A stretch of 64,000 nt of DNA. Source: Polytrichum commune. Its lineage: Eukaryota; Streptophyta; Polytrichopsida; Polytrichales; Polytrichaceae. The stretch is taken from NCBI GenBank assembly GCA_950295325.1, contig OX485807.1:7256501-7320500 (forward strand). Direction: 5' to 3'. Each line of letters opens with the position of its first letter. Position 1 is the stretch's first letter. Positions 13,801 through 53,300 of the stretch are shown in pieces. The position numbers and the translations under genes were made by a program. The notes below the pieces were generated by a model. The model made no database searches, was not told the DNA's origin, and saw only the letters and a program-made list of their open reading frames with translations.

Positions 13801-15433
13801 TGAAATTTTAGGATCTCATATACCTCAATTTTTTTCCTTTTTTGAACAAATTTAACCTGTAGTCTATACTAGAGATCTCAAATTAATCAAGTATTCATCT
13901 ATACATGGCTTAACAGACTACATAATGGACCCCTTAACATGGCTACAACTAATTGTAAGCCATACTTGGGGATTATCCTTATTGGTTGTAGCACAATGTT
14001 GACTTTGGTGTAGCCCCTTCATTGGATCACCATGTGTCTTTGATTTTGTTATTATAAAATTTTCTACCTAGTACACAAAGTCCCATTCTATGCATTTTTT
14101 GCATTACTTTGTCCTAGTCAAAGGCATAGAATTATACTTTATTATATTCTACCTAGAGTGACCTTCTATGCATGTATTGTTCTCATCCTAGTTGTGATGG
14201 GTATATGAGGACTTGCTACGTACTTATTGTTTTTCTAGGTTATTTCATGTTATGAAAACTCATTAAGAGACCAACCTAAAACTTTTCATTTGATGTTTTG
14301 AAGGTAGTCTTCATGTGGCTTGTACAAGGTTCATGTTTTGTATGTGTAATACATATGTAGATTGTGGGATGTAGGGAGCATTCCTTCTTGACGCATATTG
14401 CTTGACATGAAGTAGTATGCATGATGTGTAATTTGTCTTTATGATGCTTCAATGAAATAACTGTCATGATGGATGTGTGAAGAGAGTGTTGCTTTGCTTT
14501 GCCAAGTTGGGTCAGAAAAACTTGTAGTTACACCAATGCATTTTGAAATGGCTTTAGCTGATTCAATGATGATCATGTACAAGTATTCATAAACATTGAG
14601 TTTCAATAGTCAAATATGAAATGATTCATAACATACAAATCAACAATGTCTTGAAGTTAACCTATTTGGGTGTCCAAAGGAATTAAGCTACAAAATCTAC
14701 ATTTGTTGCTATGCTTAATGCTTAATGCCCACTTTATAAGGACCTTTGACCATTAGCATTTCCATGGTGAACATGGGACTCCAAAGATCGAGCGTACAAG
14801 GGGAAGTTATTCGCTTTAGACAAGTCGCATGGTTTTTCACTTTGTCACGTTTAGATTTTGCCATGTCCCTCAGTTGTTTGATGTTTTAATGCTTTGAGAG
14901 TGTCCTTAACAAGTTCCTTGTTATCTCATATACAATATAAGCCATGTGATTGAGTTCATGACAAACATTGTAAAAATGTTCATTGAGCTTGCATCCATAT
15001 AATTGTTAACTAGTTGTAAGTATGAAATGAGATTTATATATAATAATACTTCATATATGTATGTCGTACCTTGGGTACTTATAGAACTTTTGTATACAAG
15101 CTTAAGGAAGAAGAAATCTAATAAAAACAATTCTCTACACCAAAAATTATATTAAGAAAACCTTGAGACTAGAGTTTGGTCTACCAATCCCTTGATGGTT
15201 TCTATAATCATGTCAATCTTTATTTTAATGAAGTAATGGAAACATGATTTGAGGTTGCTAGTAGTATATTGATAGCTTTGTATATTGGAATCTAGTATCT
15301 TTTAAAATCAATTGTAACCCTTACTTTTGCATTTCAATATGATTGTGCTTGAAGGTGTATACTACTCATTTTGAGCAACTAGTATTTTTTATGACAACAA
15401 TTTTATGGAAACAAGAAATCACCGGTGTTGGAA
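10810..15433. other. Intergenic region upstream of the kinase-NB-ARC-LRR gene
   Basis: About 4.6 kb of AT-rich sequence. Short ORFs on both strands have no recognisable domains. A GC-richer patch at 12.9-13.4 kb also gives no supported protein. The promoter of the resistance-like gene should lie in the last kilobase, but I cannot point to a specific TATA box with confidence. Confidence 0.5.
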
Positions 15434-18400
15434 ATGACGAACTTTCTACGAGTACCAATGGAGTTTGCAAATTTTCCCAATCTATCATTTCCAGAAGAAG
15501 TTTTGAATAGACGACAATGCAAAAATTTGTTGGACAACTTCCGCAAGGGTGTACATGCAATTGAAACAATTGCCCATGGTTCACATGGGAATGTCTTTCG
15601 TCGAATGGAGGAAGACATGCTTTTTGTTGTGAACAAGGCAAAGGGTGTGATAGAAGAATGTTGCAATGATGATTGGTGTCGAGTTGTCGTGAAGCAAATG
15701 AATAACAAAGAGACCTTCAGGGAACTTCTCGAGGACTTTGAGTGTTCTTTCCACACAATGTGCAATGCAATTTCTCATATTTTTCCTAGTCGAAAAACTG
15801 AAGTTTTGAAGATTGAAAGCTCTACAACATTTTTTCCAACGTGCATTGATGAAGTTGAAGAGGACCATAATTCAATGGTTGAAAGGTTTTCAAAGCACTT
15901 GAATATGTGCAAAACTGCAAGTTGCAAAGATTGCACTCTTGTAGGGTACCTAATGGAACTAGTAAAGGGTCTTCAAAGGGCAGAAGGTGGTGAATTGGAT
16001 AGCATCATTTTTCCTCCTAACTACCCTTGCCCTAAATATGGAAGGCAACGTGCTCCTCTGGGTGGAGGTGCATCAGGAAGTGTATATTGCACAAGATGGT
16101 TAGAATTTGATACTGTCACAAAGGTCATCGAAGTCAATGGCCTAGACCATGAAGAAATGATTCAAAATGAAAAAATGGTTTGGAATGAAGCAAGTATTTT
16201 GGGAGGATTGAATCATCCGAACATCATCAAGTTTTTTTGTTGTGGCTTTACTAGGGATCATCCGAACATCAAGTTGTGTTATTGTGGCTTCATGAGGAAA
16301 AACATTCAAGGCAAAAAAAAGAAAATGTTTGAAATTGTCACCGAGCAAGGAACAATGGACTTGTTATGTTTCTTAAATCAACAAACTTCGTTCAATGAAG
16401 AAAATATGATTGATATTATGTTGCAAATCGCAAGCGGAATGTCCTACCTTCACGATATGGAAGTTGCCCATCGTGACTTGAAGCCTGATAATGTTGTCCT
16501 AACTTTAAATGATTCAACTAGTGTGGAACATGTGCATGTGAAGCTAGTTGATTTTGGTATATCCAAAATTGAAGTGACAAGCTTTTCAAAGGTGCCCACT
16601 GGTGAGAATATTTATGGAACTTGTGGGTATATGGCACCTGAGGTTCTTGAAAGAAGTTCAAAGGTAGATGCATTCAAAACAGACGTCTTTAGTTTTGGCA
16701 TGATGTGCTCTGAGATCCTTTTAAGAAAGAGAAATTTCAATGATTATCGTCTTCGTGATTACAAGGATTCTATCTTGAATGGTGAAAGACCCGAGCTCCC
16801 TCAAGCATGTTCGGAAGGATTGAAATCATTGATACATATATGTTGGTCCCGGGAACCTTCAAAAAGGCCAACATTCCTTGATATTCATAAGACTCTAAGA
16901 AAATTAAAGAATGATGCAATCCTCAAGACTTTCCATGATGTTGTAGCTCCCAAGCAATTCAATGAGCCCACATTTCTTTTCGGTTTGAAGCTTGGTAATA
17001 CCACCTCATTATCAAAAATTGAAGAGCAATCAAAAGACACATCATCATATCAAATGCGACATGAGGTGAATACCACTTTGTCAATATTTATTTGCAAAGA
17101 AAGTTGTATGAATCTTGACCAATCATAATATCATAGATTTAACAGTGGAATACAATGTAAGACCTCATGTAACTTATATGATTTGTTCAATAGCAATGAA
17201 TTAACTTGGTATATTGACATTTTGTAGGGGGGACACAACATGAAGGAGGATTTCAAATTGATTGGCCTCAAAGAAAAGATTCCAATATTGGAAAAATCAC
17301 TCCAACGTGTTGGAAGTGTGGGGTTTGTGGGCATGGGTGGAATTGGCAAGTCAACATTTGCGGCTGCTCTAAGTGATCACATCTCCCACCAATATGATGC
17401 GACGGTCTTTGTAAATGCCTTCAAAGATGAAAGTTGTACTTTTGTAGTGAAATACAACCTACAAAATGTGAAAGTGCTACCTGAAACCAAAACATTAAAG
17501 GAAGGACGAGAGATTTTGACCCAATTACAAAGCACACAAAAAATCCTTATTCTTGTGGACAATGTTGGTGAGGCAAACCAACTCAATGAACTATTGGGCA
17601 ATCATAAATTTCAAGATGGCGATGGAAGTAAACTCATTGCCACTTCTCGTGAATGGAAGTCCTTGGAAGCATATGTACATGTGGTTGGTAAAGTGGATGT
17701 GAAAACCCTTGATGGGCAACAATCGTTGGAATTATTTTCAATGCATGCAAATTTTACAACCAACCAACCATGCTTGCCATACTTGACATATGTAGTGAAG
17801 AAAATTGTGAGCGCTTGTGATGGACTCCCGTTGAGTTTGGAGGTGATGGGTAGTTCCTTAAATGGGGAAAAACGTTTGAGAATATGGGAGCGAAGATTGC
17901 AAAGATTGTTGAGGGCAAGGCATGATGGAAGTGAAGATCGTAGAATTTGGAATACATTACGCACAAGTTTTGATGAGCTCAATGAAAGGGAAAAGAACAT
18001 GTTCTTGGATATATCTTGTTTCTTTTGCAAAGACTCATGGATTGGTGGCTTGCAATCTACAAAAGAGACTATACTTAGATGCTTTGATGATGATGATAAA
18101 AGCATCATAGATCAAAGTTTTGAAAGGCTACAAGACAAATCATTGCTAAAAGTTGACGAATATGGTGGTTTGGATATGCATGATCAATTGCAGGATATGG
18201 GTCGTATGATTGTGGAAAAAGAATATCAAGGCTCTCGAATATGGGATTTTTCTTCATCCACATTCATTGATTATTGTAATCGAAAGGTATGTGGCACACA
18301 AATGGATGGTTTTACAAAATCATTATGAAGTTATGACTTGAATTTAGAATTGTAACCATAACTTAGAAAAACTAAGATTTGAAAATAAATGTTCCATTGT

Positions 18401-20942
18401 CTAATATTTGGTTTTCATGCAGGATACAAGATTGATTGAAGGCATTTCATTTACAAATATTGAGAAAGTATTGACATTTACAACAACTATACAACTGCAA
18501 GGTCTACGATTGTTAAGCGTTCAAAATTGCGAGGATGTGTACCTTCTTTTTTCTATCCTCATTAGAACAACCAAACTCAAAAGGTTAAGGATCCATTTTA
18601 ATACGGAATGTGATAATTTTTGGGCAATGCAAGAGAGATTCAACAATAATATTAAAAAAATTGCCAAAAATCATTTGAAAAAGTTAAGTGTCCTTGAAAT
18701 ATTCAACGGCCATATTTCAAAATCTCTTCCATTTGATGTTCTCCATTTTACAACACTCAAAGAACTTAAATTTATGGGTTGTGAAACATTGGATAGGTTT
18801 CCAAATGGACTTCAAAAAATAGTATCCTTGGAGGACTTATACATAACACGATGCAAGTCATTGAAGATGATCCCGGAGGGATTAGGAGGTTTGACATGCT
18901 TGAAGAAACTTGGTATGTGGGAATGCGAGGCCTTGGAAGAATTTCCGTCCGGAGTGTGCACTCTTGTGGCATTGGAAGAATTGGATTTTCGTGGATGCAA
19001 ATCCTTGAAGATGATCCGAGAGGGACTAGGGGGTTTGACATGTTTGAAGAAACTTGACATGTGGGAATGCGAGGCCTTGGAAGCATTTCCGTCCGGAGTG
19101 TGCACTCTTCTAGCATTGGAGGAATTGAATTTTTGTGGATGCAAATCCTTGAAGATGATCCCAGAGGGACTAGGAGGTTTGACATGTTTGAAGAAACTTG
19201 GTATGTGGAAATGCGAGGCCTTGGAAGAATTTCCGTCCGGAGTGTGCACTCTTGTGGCATTGGAGCAATTGAATTTTCGTGGATGCAAATTGTTGAAGAT
19301 GATCCCGGACGGCCTAGGGGGTTTGACATGTTTGAAGAAACTTGCTATGTCAAAATGCGAGGCCTTGGAAGAATTTCCGTTCGGAGTATGCACTCTTGTG
19401 GCATTGGAGGAATTGAGATTTCATGAATGCAAATCCTTGAAGATGATCCCGGAGGGACTAGGGGGTTTGACCTGCTTGAAGAGACTTCGTATGTCGAAAT
19501 GCGAGGCCTTGGAAGAATTTCCGTCCGGAGTGTGCACTCTTGTGGCATTGGAGGAATTGAATTTTCGTGGATGCAAATCCTTGAAGATGATCCCAAAAGG
19601 ACTAGGGGGTTTGACATGTTTGAAGAAACTCTACATGTGGGAATGCGAGGCCTTGGAAGAATTTCCGTCCGGAGTGTGCACTCTTATGGCATTGGAGGAA
19701 TTGAAATTTAATGGATGCAAATCCTTGAAGATGATCCCGGAGGGACTAGGGGGTTTGACATGTTTGAAGAAACTCTACATGTGGGAATGCGAGGCCTTGG
19801 AAGAATTTCCGTCCGGAGTGTGCACTCTTATGGCATTGGAGGAATTGAAATTTAATGGATGCAAATCCTTGAAGATGATCCCGGAGGGACTAGGGGGTTT
19901 GACATGTTTGAAGAAACTCTACATGTGGGAATGCGAGGCCTTGGAAGAATTTCCGTCCGGAGTGTGCACTCTTGTGGCATTGGAGGAATTGGCATTTTAT
20001 GAATGCAAATCCTTGAAAATGATCCCCAAGGGATTAGGGGGTTTGACATGTTTGAAGAAACTTGGTATGTCGAAATGCGAGGCCTTGGAAGAATTTCCGT
20101 CCGGAGTGTGCACTCTTGTGTCATTGGAGGAATTGGATTTTCATGGATGCAAATCCTTGAAAATGATCCCGGAGGGACTAGGAGGTTTGACATGTTTGAA
20201 GAAACTCTACATGTGGGAATGCGAGGCCTTGGAAGAATTTCCGTCCGGAGTGTGCACTCTTATGGCATTGGAGGAATTGAAATTTTATGGATGCAAATCC
20301 TTGAAGATGATCCCGGAGGGACTAGGGGGTTTGACATGTTTGAAGAAACTTGACATGTGGGAATGCGAGGCCTTGGAAGAATTTCCGTCCGGAGTGTGCA
20401 CTCTTCTAGCATTGGAGGAATTGAATTTTGGTGGATGCAAATCCTTGAAGATGATCCAAGAGGGACTAGGAGGTTTGACATGTTTGAAGAAACTTGGTAT
20501 GTGGAAATGCGAGGCCTTGGAAGAATTTCCGTCCGGAGTGTGCACTCTTGTGGCATTGGAGCAATTGAATTATCGTGGATGCAAATTGTTGAAGATGATC
20601 CCGGACGGCTTAGGGGGTTTGACATGTTTGAAGAAACTTGCTATGTCAAAATGCGAGGCCTTGGAAGAATTTCCGTTCGGAGTATGCACTCTTGTGGCAT
20701 TGGAGGAATTGAAATTTAATGGATGCAAATCCTTGAAGATGATCCCGGAGGGACTAGGGGGTTTGACCTGCTTGAAGAGACTTTGTATGTCGAAATGCGA
20801 GGCCTTGGAAGAATTTCCGTCCGGAGTGTGCACTCTTGTGGCATTGGAGGAATTGAATTTTCGTGGATGCAAATCCTTGAAGATGATCCCGGACGGCCTA
20901 GGGGGTTTGACATGTTTGAAGAAACTTGCTATGTCAAAATGA
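15434..20942 (+). CDS. Protein kinase-NB-ARC-LRR (PNL-class) immune receptor-like protein
   Basis: Three exons joined in phase 0: 15434-17065, 17228-18286, 18423-20942, giving 1,736 aa. Exon 1 carries an N-terminal domain of ~200 residues (similar in feel to the helical N-terminus of bryophyte soluble kinases) and a kinase domain (~203-470): glycine loop GGGASGSVY (~209), Lys ~229, HRDLKPDN (Asp ~348), DFG (~373), APE (~402). Exon 2 is NB-ARC: P-loop GMGGIGKST (~579), LILVDN kinase-2, GSKLIATSR RNBS-B, GLPL, a TIR-type FLDISCFF RNBS-D and MHD in MHDQLQDMGR (~861). Exon 3 encodes LRRs, mostly 48-residue double units. Kinase-NBS-LRR proteins are known in mosses and are inferred to detect pathogens. 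The frame ends at adjacent TGA-TAG codons inside the array. The first in-frame ATG was taken as start; an extra 5' exon is possible. Confidence 0.85.
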
Positions 20943-21700
20943 TAGGCCTTGGAAGAATTTCCGTCCGGAGTGTGCACTCTTGTGGCATTGGAGGAATTGA
21001 ATTTTCGTGGATGCAAATCCTTAAAGATGATCCCGGAGGGACTAGGGGGTTTGACATGTTTGAAGAAACTTGACATGTGGAAATGCGAGGCCTTGGAAGA
21101 ATTTCCGTCCGGAGTGTGCACTCTTGTGGCATTGGAGGAATTGAATTTTCGTGGTTGCAAATCCTTGAAGATGATCCCAAAAGGACTAGGGGGTTTGACA
21201 CGTTTGAAGAAATTCTACATGTGGGAATGCGAGGCCTTGGAAGAATTTCCGTCCGGAGTGTGCACTCTTGTGTCATTGGAGGAATTGAGTTTTTATAGAT
21301 GCAAATCGTTGAAGATGATCCCGGAGGGATTAAGGGGTTTCACATGTTTGAAGAAACTTGACATGTGGGAATGTAAGGCCTTGGAAGAATTTCTGTCCGG
21401 AGTGTGCACTCTTGTGGCATTAGAGGAATTGAATTTTCGTGGATGCAAATCCTTGAAGATGATCCCGGAGGGACTAGGGGGTTTGACATGTTTGAAGAAA
21501 CTTGGTATGTGGGAATGCGAGGCCTTGGAAGAATTTACGTGCGGAGTGTGCACTCTTGTGGTATTGGAGGAATTGAATTTTTATGGATGCAAATCCTTGA
21601 AAATGATCCGGAGGGACTAGGGGGTTTGACATGTTTGAAGAAACTCTACATGTGGGAATGCGAGGCCTCGGAAGAATTTCCATGAGGAATAAGCACGCTC
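18856..21700 (+). repeat. 144-bp LRR-coding tandem array, 20 units
   Basis: The motif GAGGCCTTGGAAGAATTTCC recurs every 144 bp from about 18927 to 21663, giving 20 units (19 intervals; the last is short by one base because of a deletion). Each unit encodes two 24-residue LRRs of the form L-x-x-L-x-x-L-x-x-x-x-C-x-x-L-(E/K). Neighbouring units are nearly identical (those around 19630 and 19774 look identical over the full 144 bp), so expansion or gene conversion is recent. A higher-order copy is visible: landmarks at about 19030-19590 recur at +1,296 bp (9 units), including CTCTTCTAGC (19105 and 20401), TTCGGAGTATGC and CCTGCTTGAAGAGACTT. Confidence 0.9.
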
Positions 21701-45300: not shown

Positions 45301-48300
45301 AACTGTTAGTGCCTGATTAAGATAAACAACCGATAGAGCTGCTTACCTTGTTCATTAATGTTACACCTCCTGCTCAGGCTGCCAGCTTATTTGTCAGTTA
45401 CACTAACTGCAAATTTCTATAGTGACTTAATGTAGTCAAGTTCACTGAGCAATCTTGAGCAAATACTTTCACATTGGTTTTAAATGCTCTCGTTCATTCT
45501 TGTGTATCCCTTCTAATGAGGCTTGTTGTCAGAATTTTGAACGTGTGGAAGCTGAGTTTCGATCAAGTTGCAAAAAGAGAAGGGCAGAGCTCATAGCTCG
45601 GATCAAGCAACTTCAAGATCCAGCTCAGTCTCTTGAACAGGACATAGAACAACGAGCAGAAGTTGAGGCTATGTATGAGGCTGAATCTCAAAAACTGAGA
45701 TCTGCTCGAAAAGTAAGAACTCTTCGTCTCTCACAGGTTGCTGGAACCAGGCTTAAATCAACCTAGTCTGTTGAATTGTTTGCCTTCTATTACATCAATG
45801 GTTTTGGGCTGCTATAGAAAATTTCGAAATAATGCCCCAAGTGTTTCCTTTTACCAATGTTTCTGCTGCCCTGAAGGGGTGTTTGTTGAAGACTCTCATC
45901 AATTTGAAAAGTAGTGAGACCTTTAATCTAACTCCATCTGCCTAATTCTTTGGTGTTTGCAGGAGCTGGCTGAAAAATGCCGAGAAGTTGCTTTGTTGCA
46001 GAGGCAGGTGGATGATGTTCCTGCTCAGTCTGAGCTTATCCAGTAAGTCTGATTGAACACTGATGTATGATTCACCTTGTGTGCTTGTCAACAGTTACAT
46101 CCTTTGGGGGTCATGCTGAATCTAGTGTTGACATAGAAGGTTTTTGTGCTGCTATTTTTGATGTTGTTTGGTCAATAACTGTCTTGTTACATTGATGTAG
46201 AAATAATATATGCAACTGGCAAGGAACTCCTCATGAGCCATGCTAAAAAATTTGATGCTTGTAAGGATGTCAGAGACTTCAACTTTTTTGTATCCTTAAA
46301 ATGTGAGCCTGTGTGGTTACGTGCAGGTATGAGCGTCGATTTGTAGAGCTTTATCTGCATATACAGGTCTGTTTCACTCCACATTCATCTTGTTTTGAAA
46401 CTGTCAGAAAATGTTTGATGCTATGCTTAATTTCTGTTTCGTGCATGTATGTGCTTATGGTATACATGTAAGGTGGTATCATAAGCATTCTTTCAAATTC
46501 CACTTGGTGGGCCCAAAGGACACACTTAACCTAGTTGTTTTAATTTGGTTGAAGAATTGAGGTATTTTCTTTCTTATGTTTGGATGCAAACATTGACTGT
46601 TTTGTTGGTACATCACAGAGGAAGCTAAGGGAAACAAGAAAATATTTTGCAACATATAACGCGCTTGCTGAGGCTCATGAACTTACTATGAAAGAGACCT
46701 CTCTACTGAACTCCATTCATTCTCAGGTTTGTGCATTCCAGAAAATAAGAAGGTTACTGAGGGTGTTCTATTTCTTCTTTACAACATAGTGCTGCAATGT
46801 AGTTTATACATGTGATATAAGGGTCTGGACCAACATGAGATTGACACATGGCAGAATTTGAAGGGAGAATAATAATTTTTGTCAGAATATAGAGCCTGGA
46901 TGTTACTCTGCTACCCTGCTACTGTGTTTGAAGTAACATACTATGTAGTTTGTTCAAGGGTGGTATCTGAATTATGTCGTCATCTATATTTTAATTTAGT
47001 GACTATTTGTTTTGTAAATTTTTGCAACCCCATTGAAAGTCACGTGGGAACTAGATGGGTGTTCTAGGGGTAGTTTCTGGCTTGTTCTTATATAACTGAC
47101 CTGAATGAAAATGATAAATTTTCTGCATCTCAGTTTGAGGCAGCTATGATGACCACCGGGGGGCGTGTGAAATTTGTGGATTCGATGGATGGCATTGTGA
47201 AGGGTGTAAAGCAGGTAAGATTTCCACAATTTCATTCACTGCTATTTATTTACTAGAACTTTGAGGACCTAAAGGACCAAGGAAGCTTGAATGGACGAAA
47301 AACCTACATTAAGTTCTACATGGCATGCAATGGATTATGTTTCATGGTCTACTGAATTTTATGTCAAGCCAACCCCAAAGAGGTGGGTCCAACACAAAAC
47401 CAGGAGACCATGACACTTCAAAATCTCACAACCCTTGATTGTAGAAGGGCCTGCATGAATAGGGTGGTAATGAATTAGCATTGGGTTCAGAGCCCAGTTA
47501 CATATGTCCTTGCACTGCACTTGGAAATTTGGGATTGGGTTTTGTGTGGTCATGGGCCTTCATGGTACGACCTTCGGAGGCGATTTAGGGGCCTTCACAA
47601 TTTCATGGTCACGGCCCTTGGCCATAGTGTAAGATGGCCCTAAATTCCGCGAGTACCTTGTACCAGTAAAGCCATCTTCTTGGATTTCTGGTGCTACCTT
47701 TTGCAAAGCTTGCAGGTTTACTATGTTCACTGGGTTGTTGACACTGCACTAAATAGGCCTATTAGTCTGGGCCATCTTCTTTTTCAACCCACACCAGATC
47801 TATAGTTTTAAAATAATGTGGGCCACATTAACAAGGTGAATGTTATATTTTATAGTGTTTCTAGGAAATTGATTTGGGCGAATATTGTAATATATACTAC
47901 TTTTGATGGAAGGTGACTATTTTCCTTATGTGAAGTGTTGATTGGAAGTCTCAAGGATGACTGAGGGCAAGACCCAGGGTCTTTGACCCATGTTATTTCG
48001 ACTCCAACTAGACAATTAGAGTGGCCCACATCAAATGTTTCCACACGAATTTTCCACCTACACTAATAGGACTATTTAGTGTAGTTACCATGTCTAAGCT
48101 TAAGAGGTGTCTGCATGATCCTCTCTATGTTGTTTGGTGTCATACAGAAATTGGGGAAGATGGAGAAGCGGTTCCAAGCAGAGAAGGACACATACTCTAT
48201 GTTGAAAGAGAAGCACGTGGCTTGTGTTGCTGCCCAACGGAACTATTTCTCTCTTCTCAAACTCTTCCAAGTAAGCTCTTCATTGACATCTTCAATTAGG

Positions 48301-49333
48301 CGGATCTCAAGAGAATATGGTAGTCCATGCAACCTTGGTGTATTCTTCAACCTCGGAAACAACAAAGTGGGTTAAATATATTTTCAATCTTCTAAAGTAC
48401 ATCAAGTATAACTTGAATCTAATACTTGTTGGGGGCTTGTATAAACTATTGGGTGGGCCGTAGGATGTATACTGGTGTCTTTAAGGGAACTTAATGCATG
48501 GCCAAACAAAGTAGCAATTCTTGCATTTACACCCAGTGTCCCACTGAGAAGTTGCTCACTTAGGATAGCTGTATATTAGGGTCCAGGCCTACGAAACTTG
48601 GGCGTCCGAAACACCCCTTCAATTGACCTTACTTTCAGACTCAAGGTTGGACCCCAGCTTAAAGACTTGTGTCTCAAACTAGGAATATTTTCAGGAGTGG
48701 AGACCGCCAAGATTTGACTCAAGATTAGTGTCGCTTCATTTTTCTATACCTTGGACCCAGACCCTAATGTAAACTCCTTGGGTCCAGAAATTTGCTCTCC
48801 ACCAATAGGATCGCTCAATTCTGGAGTTTTTTTAATCTTGGACCTTAGTGTAAACCTCCTCGGGTCCATAAATTTGCTCTTGACCAATAGGATCCACTCG
48901 ACTCTGGAGTTTCTTGGGTCTTGGGCCCTAGTGTGAAGCCCCTGGGGTCCAGAAATTTGCTCTCCACCAATGGGGTCGCTTGATTCTGGAGTTTCTTTGG
49001 TCTTGGACCCTAGTGTAAACCCACCCTCACATCATAGTATGACAATGATGAGTAGAGAAGGTGACGTTTGCCATGACTCTTGAGAGTGGGTAGCTCACAT
49101 CCAACCTTGAATATTTGAGCAAACCTTATTTTTTCTCTGTTTCTGTGTCAGATGCTTATGGTTTTCCTCCTGGATTGCAGGAAGAATGTGCACGCAGTGA
49201 GAAATTGCGATCTGCACTGGAGCCGTTTGCTACCAAGGACATCCCTTCGTCTCCACTGGCACTGGCACTGACACCGACACTGGAACCTTTAGAACTGGAA
49301 CCTCGGCAACAGTCTTTTGTACCACCACTGTGA
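42399..49333 (+). CDS. CCDC93: CCDC93 homologue, endosomal CCC-complex subunit
   Basis: Thirteen exons: 42399-42601, 43101-43260, 43495-43610, 44323-44410, 44740-44856, 45131-45244, 45533-45712, 45963-46042, 46327-46366, 46619-46726, 47134-47214, 48148-48270, 49181-49333; 1,563 nt, 520 aa, phases consistent. In animals CCDC93 works with CCDC22 and COMMD proteins in the Commander/CCC complex for endosomal recycling. The N-terminal NN-CH-like domain is clear: LLLSGGYFRAQI, LSPFDMLTGGLAWSI, VDVDFDVLYDDDATLGYK, then CPYPLQAHQIQGLDY and VVQWLVKRVL. The C-terminal two-thirds is coiled coil, with family landmarks ELIQYERRFVELY and RKYFATYNALAEAHELTMKETSLLNSIH. It is shorter than human CCDC93 (631 aa). 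Exon 4 is weakest: it requires a GC-AG intron (CAACAG|gcatag). Two ATGs occur at 42394 and 42399; only the second is in frame. Confidence 0.9.
47740..48095 (-). repeat. Dispersed repeat, inverted copy in CCDC93 intron 11
   Basis: The reverse complement of this block matches 31670-32020: CTCTAATTGTCTAGTTGGAG, ACATGGGTCAAAGACCCTGG, TTGCCCTCAGTCATCC and TTGAGACTTCCAATCAACAC correspond in order. CACTAATAGGACTATTTAGTG and CACTAAATAGGCCTATTAGTC mark its two ends, so the ends are themselves short inverted repeats. Confidence 0.6.
48757..49020. repeat. ~90-bp tandem repeat x 3 in CCDC93 intron 12
   Basis: Three units, each with a (TTGGACCC)TAGTGTAAAC-type start, then GGGTCCAGAAATTTGCTCTC, CACCAATAGGATCGCT and TTCTGGAGTTTCTTTGGTCT. 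Units begin near 48757, 48841 and 48933. Within-unit differences are moderate. Non-coding. Confidence 0.75.
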
Positions 49334-49436
49334 ATGACTGACCGCATGCATGCAACGTTAATTGTTTTATAGTCCTTTAGGAGATCATCCCTTCAGTGTA
49401 TGATCATTTGTGCACTCTCTGTTTGTGGGAACTTGC

Positions 49437-50317: not shown

Positions 50318-53300
50318 CTAATCCTTGACATCGGCAACGCCTCCTTTTGTGATCTGGAAGATGTGAGATCAAGTTAAGGGCAACAGTGTAAGGGCAGCGA
50401 TAATATCAATATCAAATTCAATTTAGCGACCATGGAGAACCGACCCCGGGTGACGTGGGTGCAAAAGCAGATAAATTTTCCGGAAAGAAATATAGAAGTA
50501 CGAGGATATAGCTTCGTCGTCTGGCAAATTCGGTGCATCGAACACTTTGCAGATTCGCTGTTCAGCCTTCCCCTTCCTCAGCATCAATCGGACTGTCGAG
50601 GCGTGGGCTAATACATGACCGCCGGCAGGCTTCTTCGGGTCAGCCACGAACGTTCCTCCTCCAGGATCAGCTATGACTGAATAACGTCAACATGACAAAA
50701 CATTAAAAAAATTGTGGCCACTCCATAAATATGTGTACAAAGGCTACATACAAAAGCCAACCTTGGAACATCTTTGCCCACCTAAACGATGGTTTCTCGT
50801 ATTATCCTGTGTTCTCTGGTAACAACTCCGAGACATGAGTGCAAAAGAATTAGCTAGAATTGACATGGATGTGACAACTACTTCCCTTGTTAACGCTAAC
50901 GATGAAGAACGACTTCATCCGAGTACAAAACTCAGGTGTATAAAAGTACAACTGACCGTGGTTCGTCATGAAGACTGCAACATTGAACTCCTCAGCCATT
51001 TTAACCAGCTTTGAAAGCATTTGAGCCAGTTTTTGCTGTAGTACAGCCAACAGATCCAGATCCAGACCAAACACAAAGTTGGCACGAAAAAATCCACAAC
51101 ATAAGGAGATCGTACATCTTTAAGATAGAGGACATAGCCGACGGTACTATGTCATGATGTACTAAGCATTCCGTCTAGCAATGTAACAAGTTCAACAAAT
51201 TATTTTAAGTAAATGCTTCAAAAATGAACTGAAAAGAATTGGAGTTATAAACATTCCTCCTGATTTAAGGCACTTTTGAAGAATAACCCTCAGAACTACA
51301 TGATATGCCAAGATTTTTGTAAGGCTGCAATCACTGCGAAGAGGTAAATTACCTGCCGATCAGCCAGCTCTCCACGTCCAGTGAAGTCTACTCGGAAAAG
51401 AGCCATGATCGAATCAACGATCTGTTTCATGGCGTGTTATAATTACAATTTCGTAACTAATTTTCGAAGTGCCTACCACTGGTTCTAACTTTGGCGTCAT
51501 TGAATGTAGAATCTACAGATGTACAGGATGCAATTCCTGCTATACTAGTTTTTCTAGAAATCGTTATTCGATTGTTCAAGCCATTTTCTGACAGGGAATG
51601 CGGCACTCCTAGATGAGAATGGCTGCAAGCATGCCGAAGCTGGTGGATGCCAGTGTAAGTTTCCTGAGCTTACTAGAAATTTAGAACACTTCAGAAAAAA
51701 AATATAGATTCTTTTGAGGGCAGGAAGTTTGGAAGATACCGCAAGAGAGCACTTACAACTAATCGGAACGGTTCTTCGGCCATCCTGCAGGACAGACCGC
51801 CGAGCAATGTGAACTGGTGCTCATGAGTGTACGCGCGAGCATATACAATCTGCCACAATTGCCACGACAGAGTTTAATCCGCTACAAAATCATAAGATGG
51901 AAGAATCCTATCTGAAGGACACTAGTTAAAGTGGACAGTCTTCCTAATTTTCATAATGGCGATGTTCTATATCATAGAATTCTTGCACAAAATAAGTTAC
52001 CAGAGATCATCATCTAAAATATAGCGATAAAATATAGCGGTACAATTTCTCCATCTGCAACGCAATTTTAGAAATGAATAGGCTCGCTCATTCTTCTTCT
52101 CTGGGACTTACATTGTCGAGTACAGCAGTGTAATCAAGTCCAAAACGCTCCGCAATCGGAAGGAGGCGGTCAGGTCGGCTGTGTCATGTGATTAATTCTT
52201 ACTTCTCTTTTACTTAGAATCCAACCATGGTAAGTCGACATGCAAATGATAACTTAATGCTTGCAGCGGCATAATGAAGTGATAATAGGTTGCAGGTTGA
52301 AGCGACTCGATGAGCAGAATTGTCACCGTTCAATAACTTGAAGAATATATAACTAGTGCATTTTGAATGAGTTAATGTCACCTTACTGCGCACTATAATT
52401 TCAACTCTGCGACAATTTAAGCGTCCGCTGAGAGAAAGTATCGTGTTTGTCACATTATAGTGCAGAGTAAGGTGACATCAACTTAGTCAAAGCGATTAGT
52501 TGTACAAGACAATTTCTATTCACGGGTGAGGAAATTTATCCTTGGCAGACTTACAATGTTCCTTCAGTGTCAATGTATGCCACTTTCCCGTTTCCCCCTC
52601 CCATACTGAAAGGAAGCTGCTGTGTGTGAGTCCAACATTAGTAACTGATGCTGTAAATGTAGAACGGGTCAAATCGCTCACATCATCGAAAGAAATGCAC
52701 AAGAGTGGAAGGGAGAGGAAAGGAGAATATAGTGTCAACGATGAACTCTTTTTCAGATTCCAACATGCGTGGTAAAGGTTTGCATAATCAATGTGAAGCG
52801 GATCCGATAAAGAACTATCGGATTATTCGACAGGACTATTCGTCAAAGGAATTAATAAAAGAACCTGCGTTGATACGCAAAGTGTATGCGCCAACTGAGT
52901 CTTTCCGGTCCTGCATCACCAATCCAGAACCTGTTAATTTTGTGTCAAGGTTCACACGATTTACACAATCGATTTCTAGTAGCAATACGTCAAGAGTAAC
53001 CAACCTGAACTCGCCAAACACCTCTGTGAGTGACATGGTTTCAACACCGCCTTCACGGAAAACAACGAGTCATGTTAGCGATGTTATGTTTCGAATGGAA
53101 GAAAGCGATGTAAATTGCTTAGGAGAAGATCAATCTTAAACTTTATAGGAAATATAGAAGTTGAAGTAAATCGCTTAGGAGAAGATTGATCTTAAACTAG
53201 GAGTCGGAGACTCTGTAGAATAATTTAAACCTCCAAGAAGCACGTCGAGCGCCTGACATCCGGTTGTGATGCGTACAACTGTCTTTCGCTGTAAGTGCAA

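Follow-up and report, generated by a model that had tools for sequence, protein, structure and literature searches.

In a predicted DMC1 recombinase gene of the plant Polytrichum commune, the final coding intron identified is very probably a genuine U12-type AT-AC intron (we put the probability at about 0.93). It lies at 50509-50363 of the window, by which we mean the whole stretch of 64,000 nucleotides that was analysed (C5:7256501-7320500). The features to which the text refers are listed below.

54240-50318, minus strand: DMC1 gene; the model has 14 coding exons and 13 introns and does not extend to the start codon at the extreme N-terminus
50510..50676, minus strand: exon 13, with an 11-residue end given
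50509-50363, minus strand: putative U12-type AT-AC intron (intron 13, 147 nt, phase 0), the final coding intron identified
50502..50509, minus strand: putative U12-type 5' splice site ATATCCTC, matching RTATCCTT at 7/8 positions
50423..50425, minus strand: in-frame TAA, met after 28 intron-encoded residues upon retention
50373..50380, minus strand: putative U12-type branch site CCCTTAAC, matching TCCTTAAC at 7/8 positions, with the branch A at 50374
50363..50364, minus strand: AC 3' splice site
50318..50362, minus strand: exon 14, 14 residues and the stop

The DMC1 gene and its last coding intron

The predicted minus-strand gene is DMC1, not RAD51, because its joined product scored 523.3 bits with the NCBIfam model recomb_DMC1 (TIGR02238), above the cut-off of 447.7 and over all 314 profile positions, and 425.3 bits with recomb_RAD51 (TIGR02239), below the cut-off of 478.05. 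Among the best solved structures, human DMC1 (421.9 bits) was likewise ahead of RAD51 (370.5 bits). These scores bear out the earlier note on this DNA, which had named the gene DMC1. The joined product comprises 333 residues over the 14 exons, is free of stops, does not include the start codon, and matched the Pfam Rad51 family with 396.2 bits. Relatives were also sought in contigs of other origin; the scan of prokaryote contigs gave one archaeal relative, and the scan of viral contigs gave none.

Eleven of the 13 introns have GT-AG ends, and the remaining two are GC-AG and AT-AC. Intron 2 (53852-53711, minus strand) appears to be the GC-AG intron (AAG|GCAGATC...TTTGCAG|GCT). Enumeration of its junctions gave 16 in-frame options, all of them GC-AG; since no GT donor in the enumerated range keeps the frame, DMC1 would contain two non-GT introns. 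At the end of exon 12 (50957-51035, minus strand), an 11-residue stretch was observed to differ at the TNQ of human DMC1, the glutamine of which we take to be highly conserved in loop 2 of the RecA family. The codon at this site is independent of the splice choice because it is located wholly inside exon 12.

Read on the minus strand, the sequence across intron 13 is GCT|ATATCCTCGT...GTTGCCCTTAACTTGATCTCAC|ATCTTCCAG, and 50509-50363 is the exact AT-AC interval. Both the branch point 11 nt before the intron end and the AC acceptor were found as the earlier note had described them, with the branch motif stopping 10 nt before the junction. Only TTGATCTCAC separates the branch motif from the 3' splice site, and no polypyrimidine tract is present. 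In the accessible part of PMC2426677, the U12-type 5' site is printed as |ATATCCTT, and the branch site is located 10-15 bases before the 3' splice site. Intron 13 was assigned to the AT-AC subtype of U12 introns because it resembles, at 7 of 8 positions each, the 5' site |ATATCCTT or |GTATCCTT and the branch site TCCTTAAC, the latter at the expected distance of 10-15 nt from the 3' splice site. The other 12 DMC1 introns matched the U12-type 5' site at 3-4 and the branch site at 3-5 of 8 positions. The branch region of intron 13 looks duplicated on the minus strand, with TGCCCTTACAC (50396-50386) followed by TGCCCTTAAC (50382-50373), and only the second of these stretches, TGCCCTTAAC, fits the U12 branch consensus.

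The in-frame join of DDEA with the 14 residues of exon 14 gives the conserved recombinase end of 18 residues. Across the junction and up to the final residue of human DMC1, this spliced C-terminus aligned without gaps; the four alignments displayed are all to human DMC1 entries.

Alternative junctions and chance occurrence of the motifs

Donor-acceptor pairs of six dinucleotide types were enumerated for introns of 30 nt or more, the donors being taken from 50557 up to where exon 14 starts. Forty-one junctions were retained, and the 17 listed among them comprised all 11 GT-AG or GC-AG pairs and 6 others of similar length. The exact mRNA can be obtained from three equivalent junctions, of which only 50509-50363 is AT-AC with a U12-type 5' site at +1. 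When the end pieces of six isoforms were compared with the Pfam Rad51 profile, the AT-AC product scored best (63.1 bits) and reached position 244/244; the next piece scored 50.2 bits.

That next piece belongs to a U12-type AT-AG intron (50509-50354), which would use the same 5' and branch sites together with a CAG 9 nt downstream and would encode a 15-residue end. This variant keeps the frame, has its AG 9 nt beyond the AC, and ranked second of the six pieces. However, its score is 12.9 bits below that of the AT-AC product, it loses IFQ, the aligned counterpart of TFA in human DMC1, and its branch motif would end 19 nt short of the junction, farther than the 10-15 bases given in the accessible text of PMC2426677. 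We consider it very improbable that this junction is the one used.

If there were no intron, or if retention were normal, the mature DMC1 would carry a 28-residue tail. The frame is indeed open for 28 codons, and reading through adds exactly 28 residues before the stop, in agreement with the spurious tail of ~28 residues that the earlier note had described. The retention piece scored 46.7 bits, however, and its match to the Rad51 profile halts at 233/244, with the missing end and a stop encoded downstream; the full-length recomb_DMC1 score falls from 523.3 to 506.1 bits on retention, and the U12 motifs would have to be a coincidence of order 1e-5. We give this reading hardly any probability.

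A GT-AG or GC-AG intron combined with an unusual DMC1 C-terminus is just as implausible: 6 GT-AG and 5 GC-AG pairs preserve the reading frame of the final VKD, but each of the eleven removes conserved residues or adds intron-coded ones, and the three of them scored on the Pfam profile gave 47.5, 46.4 and 33.6 bits, against 63.1 bits for AT-AC. These alternatives were rejected, as none of the 11 enumerated pairs restores the recombinase C-terminus. Two further claims of the earlier note thereby held over the enumerated range, namely that only the AT-AC splice yields the conserved end and that a predictor limited to GT-AG introns would miss it.

The assignment of 50509-50363 as an AT-AC intron was also considered against the chance level of its motifs. 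Scanning of both strands of the 64-kb window showed the motif pair at 2 places, both on the minus strand, and shuffled windows contained a mean of 0.435 pairs, with at least one pair in 77 of 200. The motif pair alone is thus neither significant nor rare, and it was rejected as proof of an intron by itself. The second pair (38625-38274, minus strand) was taken as chance because it is located opposite an apparent plus-strand gene (read by eye). The occurrence of both motifs at one fixed junction has an expected frequency of ~5.9e-6, or ~1.8e-5 when all three equivalent junctions are counted, as calculated from the window frequencies of equally good matches with independence of the motifs assumed. 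The evidence for the intron is therefore the fit of the motifs to the coding junction and not the pair as such. A genome-wide scan for short introns with strict U12-like motifs showed no enrichment: its 11 matches, at 10 distinct places, were fewer than the 51 of a reversed-pattern control. When the flanking sequences of 10 of these 11 loci were read by eye, no convincing coding junction was seen.

Minor-spliceosome snRNAs and a variant U6atac

The genome searched comprises 408 Mb in 64 contigs, and most of the minor-spliceosome snRNA genes are predicted to be present in it alongside the DMC1 intron. U12 (87.6 bits, cut-off 53), U11 (68.9 bits, cut-off 39) and U6atac (91.2 bits, cut-off 33) were all matched, the U6atac match (C4:35254560-35254679) being the only one in the genome. 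U4atac gave no match in a search of this genome, a result that does not in itself show its absence, and the Rfam search of the window gave no matches. A second U12-like copy was observed at C1:4725816-4726008; it scored 52.9 bits against the cut-off of 53, and its 5' branch-binding stretch is intact.

The branch region of intron 13 formed a duplex of -9.6 kcal/mol with the U12 snRNA of the same genome, compared with -10.7 for the consensus branch site. This value is not very specific, because the upstream non-canonical stretch CCCTTACAC of the intron gave -8.7. With the genome's own U11, the DMC1 5' site gave -4.4 and the consensus 5' site -8.2. The U12 fit, which had been called almost ideal, stood insofar as both motifs match at 7/8 positions; the wording was slightly generous, because one position in each motif departs from the consensus and the genome's own U11 pairs less strongly with this 5' site than with the consensus site.

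According to the mechanism that we propose, the U11/U12 di-snRNP would recognise the 5' site ATATCCTC and the branch site CCCTTAAC, and U6atac-containing complexes would then excise the 147 nt and join DDEA to the 14-residue recombinase end. From the motifs and the coding junction, we infer that the transcript is really spliced at the AT-AC junction. Retention would be expected to replace the end of DMC1 by 28 foreign residues; since intron 13 is the last coding intron found, the stop met on retention would have no coding junction downstream of it, and such a tail-swapped protein could thus be made.

The single U6atac copy starts with GUGUUCGUUGAGCCGAGAGAAGG, compared with GUGUUGUaUGAAAGGAGAGAAGG in the Rfam consensus, and its 5'-site-binding stretch reads AGCCGAGAG instead of the consensus AAAGGAGAG. 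This stretch presumably pairs with U12-type 5' splice sites, and we assume that its GGA, which is CGA here, pairs with positions +4 to +6 of the 5' site. When the conserved stretch next to it was searched for as a pattern with up to one mismatch, again one copy only was obtained. The copy need not be a pseudogene, because it carries a terminal T run together with TATA-like and upstream-element-like stretches that, as read by eye, we take to be those of plant snRNA promoters. In duplex calculations, the genome's own U6atac favoured the DMC1 site (-6.0) over the consensus site (-4.8), and the consensus U6atac had the reverse preference (-4.5 for the DMC1 site, -8.2 for the consensus site). This preference is a lead only, as the duplexes are very short and one intron is concerned, and a canonical U6atac copy missing from the assembly would explain the variant away. 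If the variant is the only functional U6atac, it will be necessary in this lineage to check the pairing rules of minor introns, which may matter more than the intron itself.

Relation to known U12 introns and to neighbouring genes

U12-type AT-AC introns are well known, and intron 13 of DMC1 would be a new case that may already be included in published intron lists. Their share of Arabidopsis U12 introns is 26% in a table of PMC7367187, and 4.8% is quoted as an estimate in PMC5932401, from both of which, as from the other articles cited here, the accessible parts were used. U12 introns are recorded in PMC5932401 from mosses, liverworts, one lycophyte and seed plants. Intron 13 resembles intron 4 of CBP20 in the same article, which has AT-AC termini and a branch site of the TTCCTTRAY type, and its length of 147 nt is comparable to the short class described there (76 to 284 nt). 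It differs from the CBP20 introns, which have an AT content of ~65%, in having an AT content of 58% and a CCC-type branch site. Its position is also unusual. In human and Arabidopsis, the 5' portions of genes are enriched for U12 introns according to the accessible text of PMC2426677, and a 5' bias is also reported in that of PMC10639083, whereas intron 13 is located at the extreme 3' end of the DMC1 coding sequence. Compared with known DMC1, the meiotic RecA-type recombinase, the gene has a full-length family match, and one of its coding introns appears to be of the U12 type.

The AT content of 58% is the lowest among the 13 DMC1 introns. Together with the C at position +8 of the 5' site and the CCC that precedes TTAAC in the branch site, it suggests that intron 13 may be spliced less efficiently than is typical. 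The available portion of PMC5932401 states that plant U12 introns are spliced better the richer they are in TA, and it names a feature of patens U12 introns, which may differ from the CCC observed here, as possibly responsible for poor splicing. It is conceivable, although we hold it to be improbable, that such a weak minor intron serves to limit the rate at which the functional DMC1 C-terminus is made, or to restrict it to meiosis, with a 5' site that may be co-adapted to the lineage-specific U6atac and with retention yielding a tail-swapped, possibly dominant-negative DMC1.

In the accessible passages of the open-access literature, we found no description of a U12 or AT-AC intron in DMC1. 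DMC1 and U12 splicing are mentioned separately in the accessible parts of PMC5608401 and PMC11594017, and the relevant terms occur only in the reference list within that of PMC4202332. PMC4189105 was rejected as a link between DMC1 and U12, as the 'U12' in its accessible text is a grant number. In mice, minor splicing is already known to matter for fertility: mutation of the U12-splicing factor ZRSR1 alters U12 splicing and impairs spermatogenesis, and the accessible part of that article (PMC11594017) makes no tie to a U12 intron in Dmc1. If transcripts confirm the AT-AC junction in Polytrichum commune, the functional C-terminus of DMC1, the central meiotic recombinase, would depend on the minor spliceosome in this plant, and minor-spliceosome activity could then be connected with meiosis and fertility in a simple and testable way. 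Annotation restricted to GT-AG and GC-AG introns would put a wrong C-terminus on DMC1, both here and in relatives with the same intron.

Other genes were also recognised in the window. The neighbouring genes at 46600-49335 on the plus strand and 59800-57600 on the minus strand gave CCDC93-like coiled-coil and syntaxin/SNARE matches. Further away, the region 15395-21620 on the plus strand contains a kinase, an NB-ARC domain and a long run of leucine-rich repeat units that are much alike. The series makes a moss origin of the DNA plausible but is only indirect support for it; its parts are as follows.

15395-17128, plus strand: protein kinase
17228-18325, plus strand: NB-ARC
20946-21617, plus strand: LRR

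This series resembles the PK-NBS-LRR (PNL) class of the moss Physcomitrella, as presented in the accessible part of PMC3352924.
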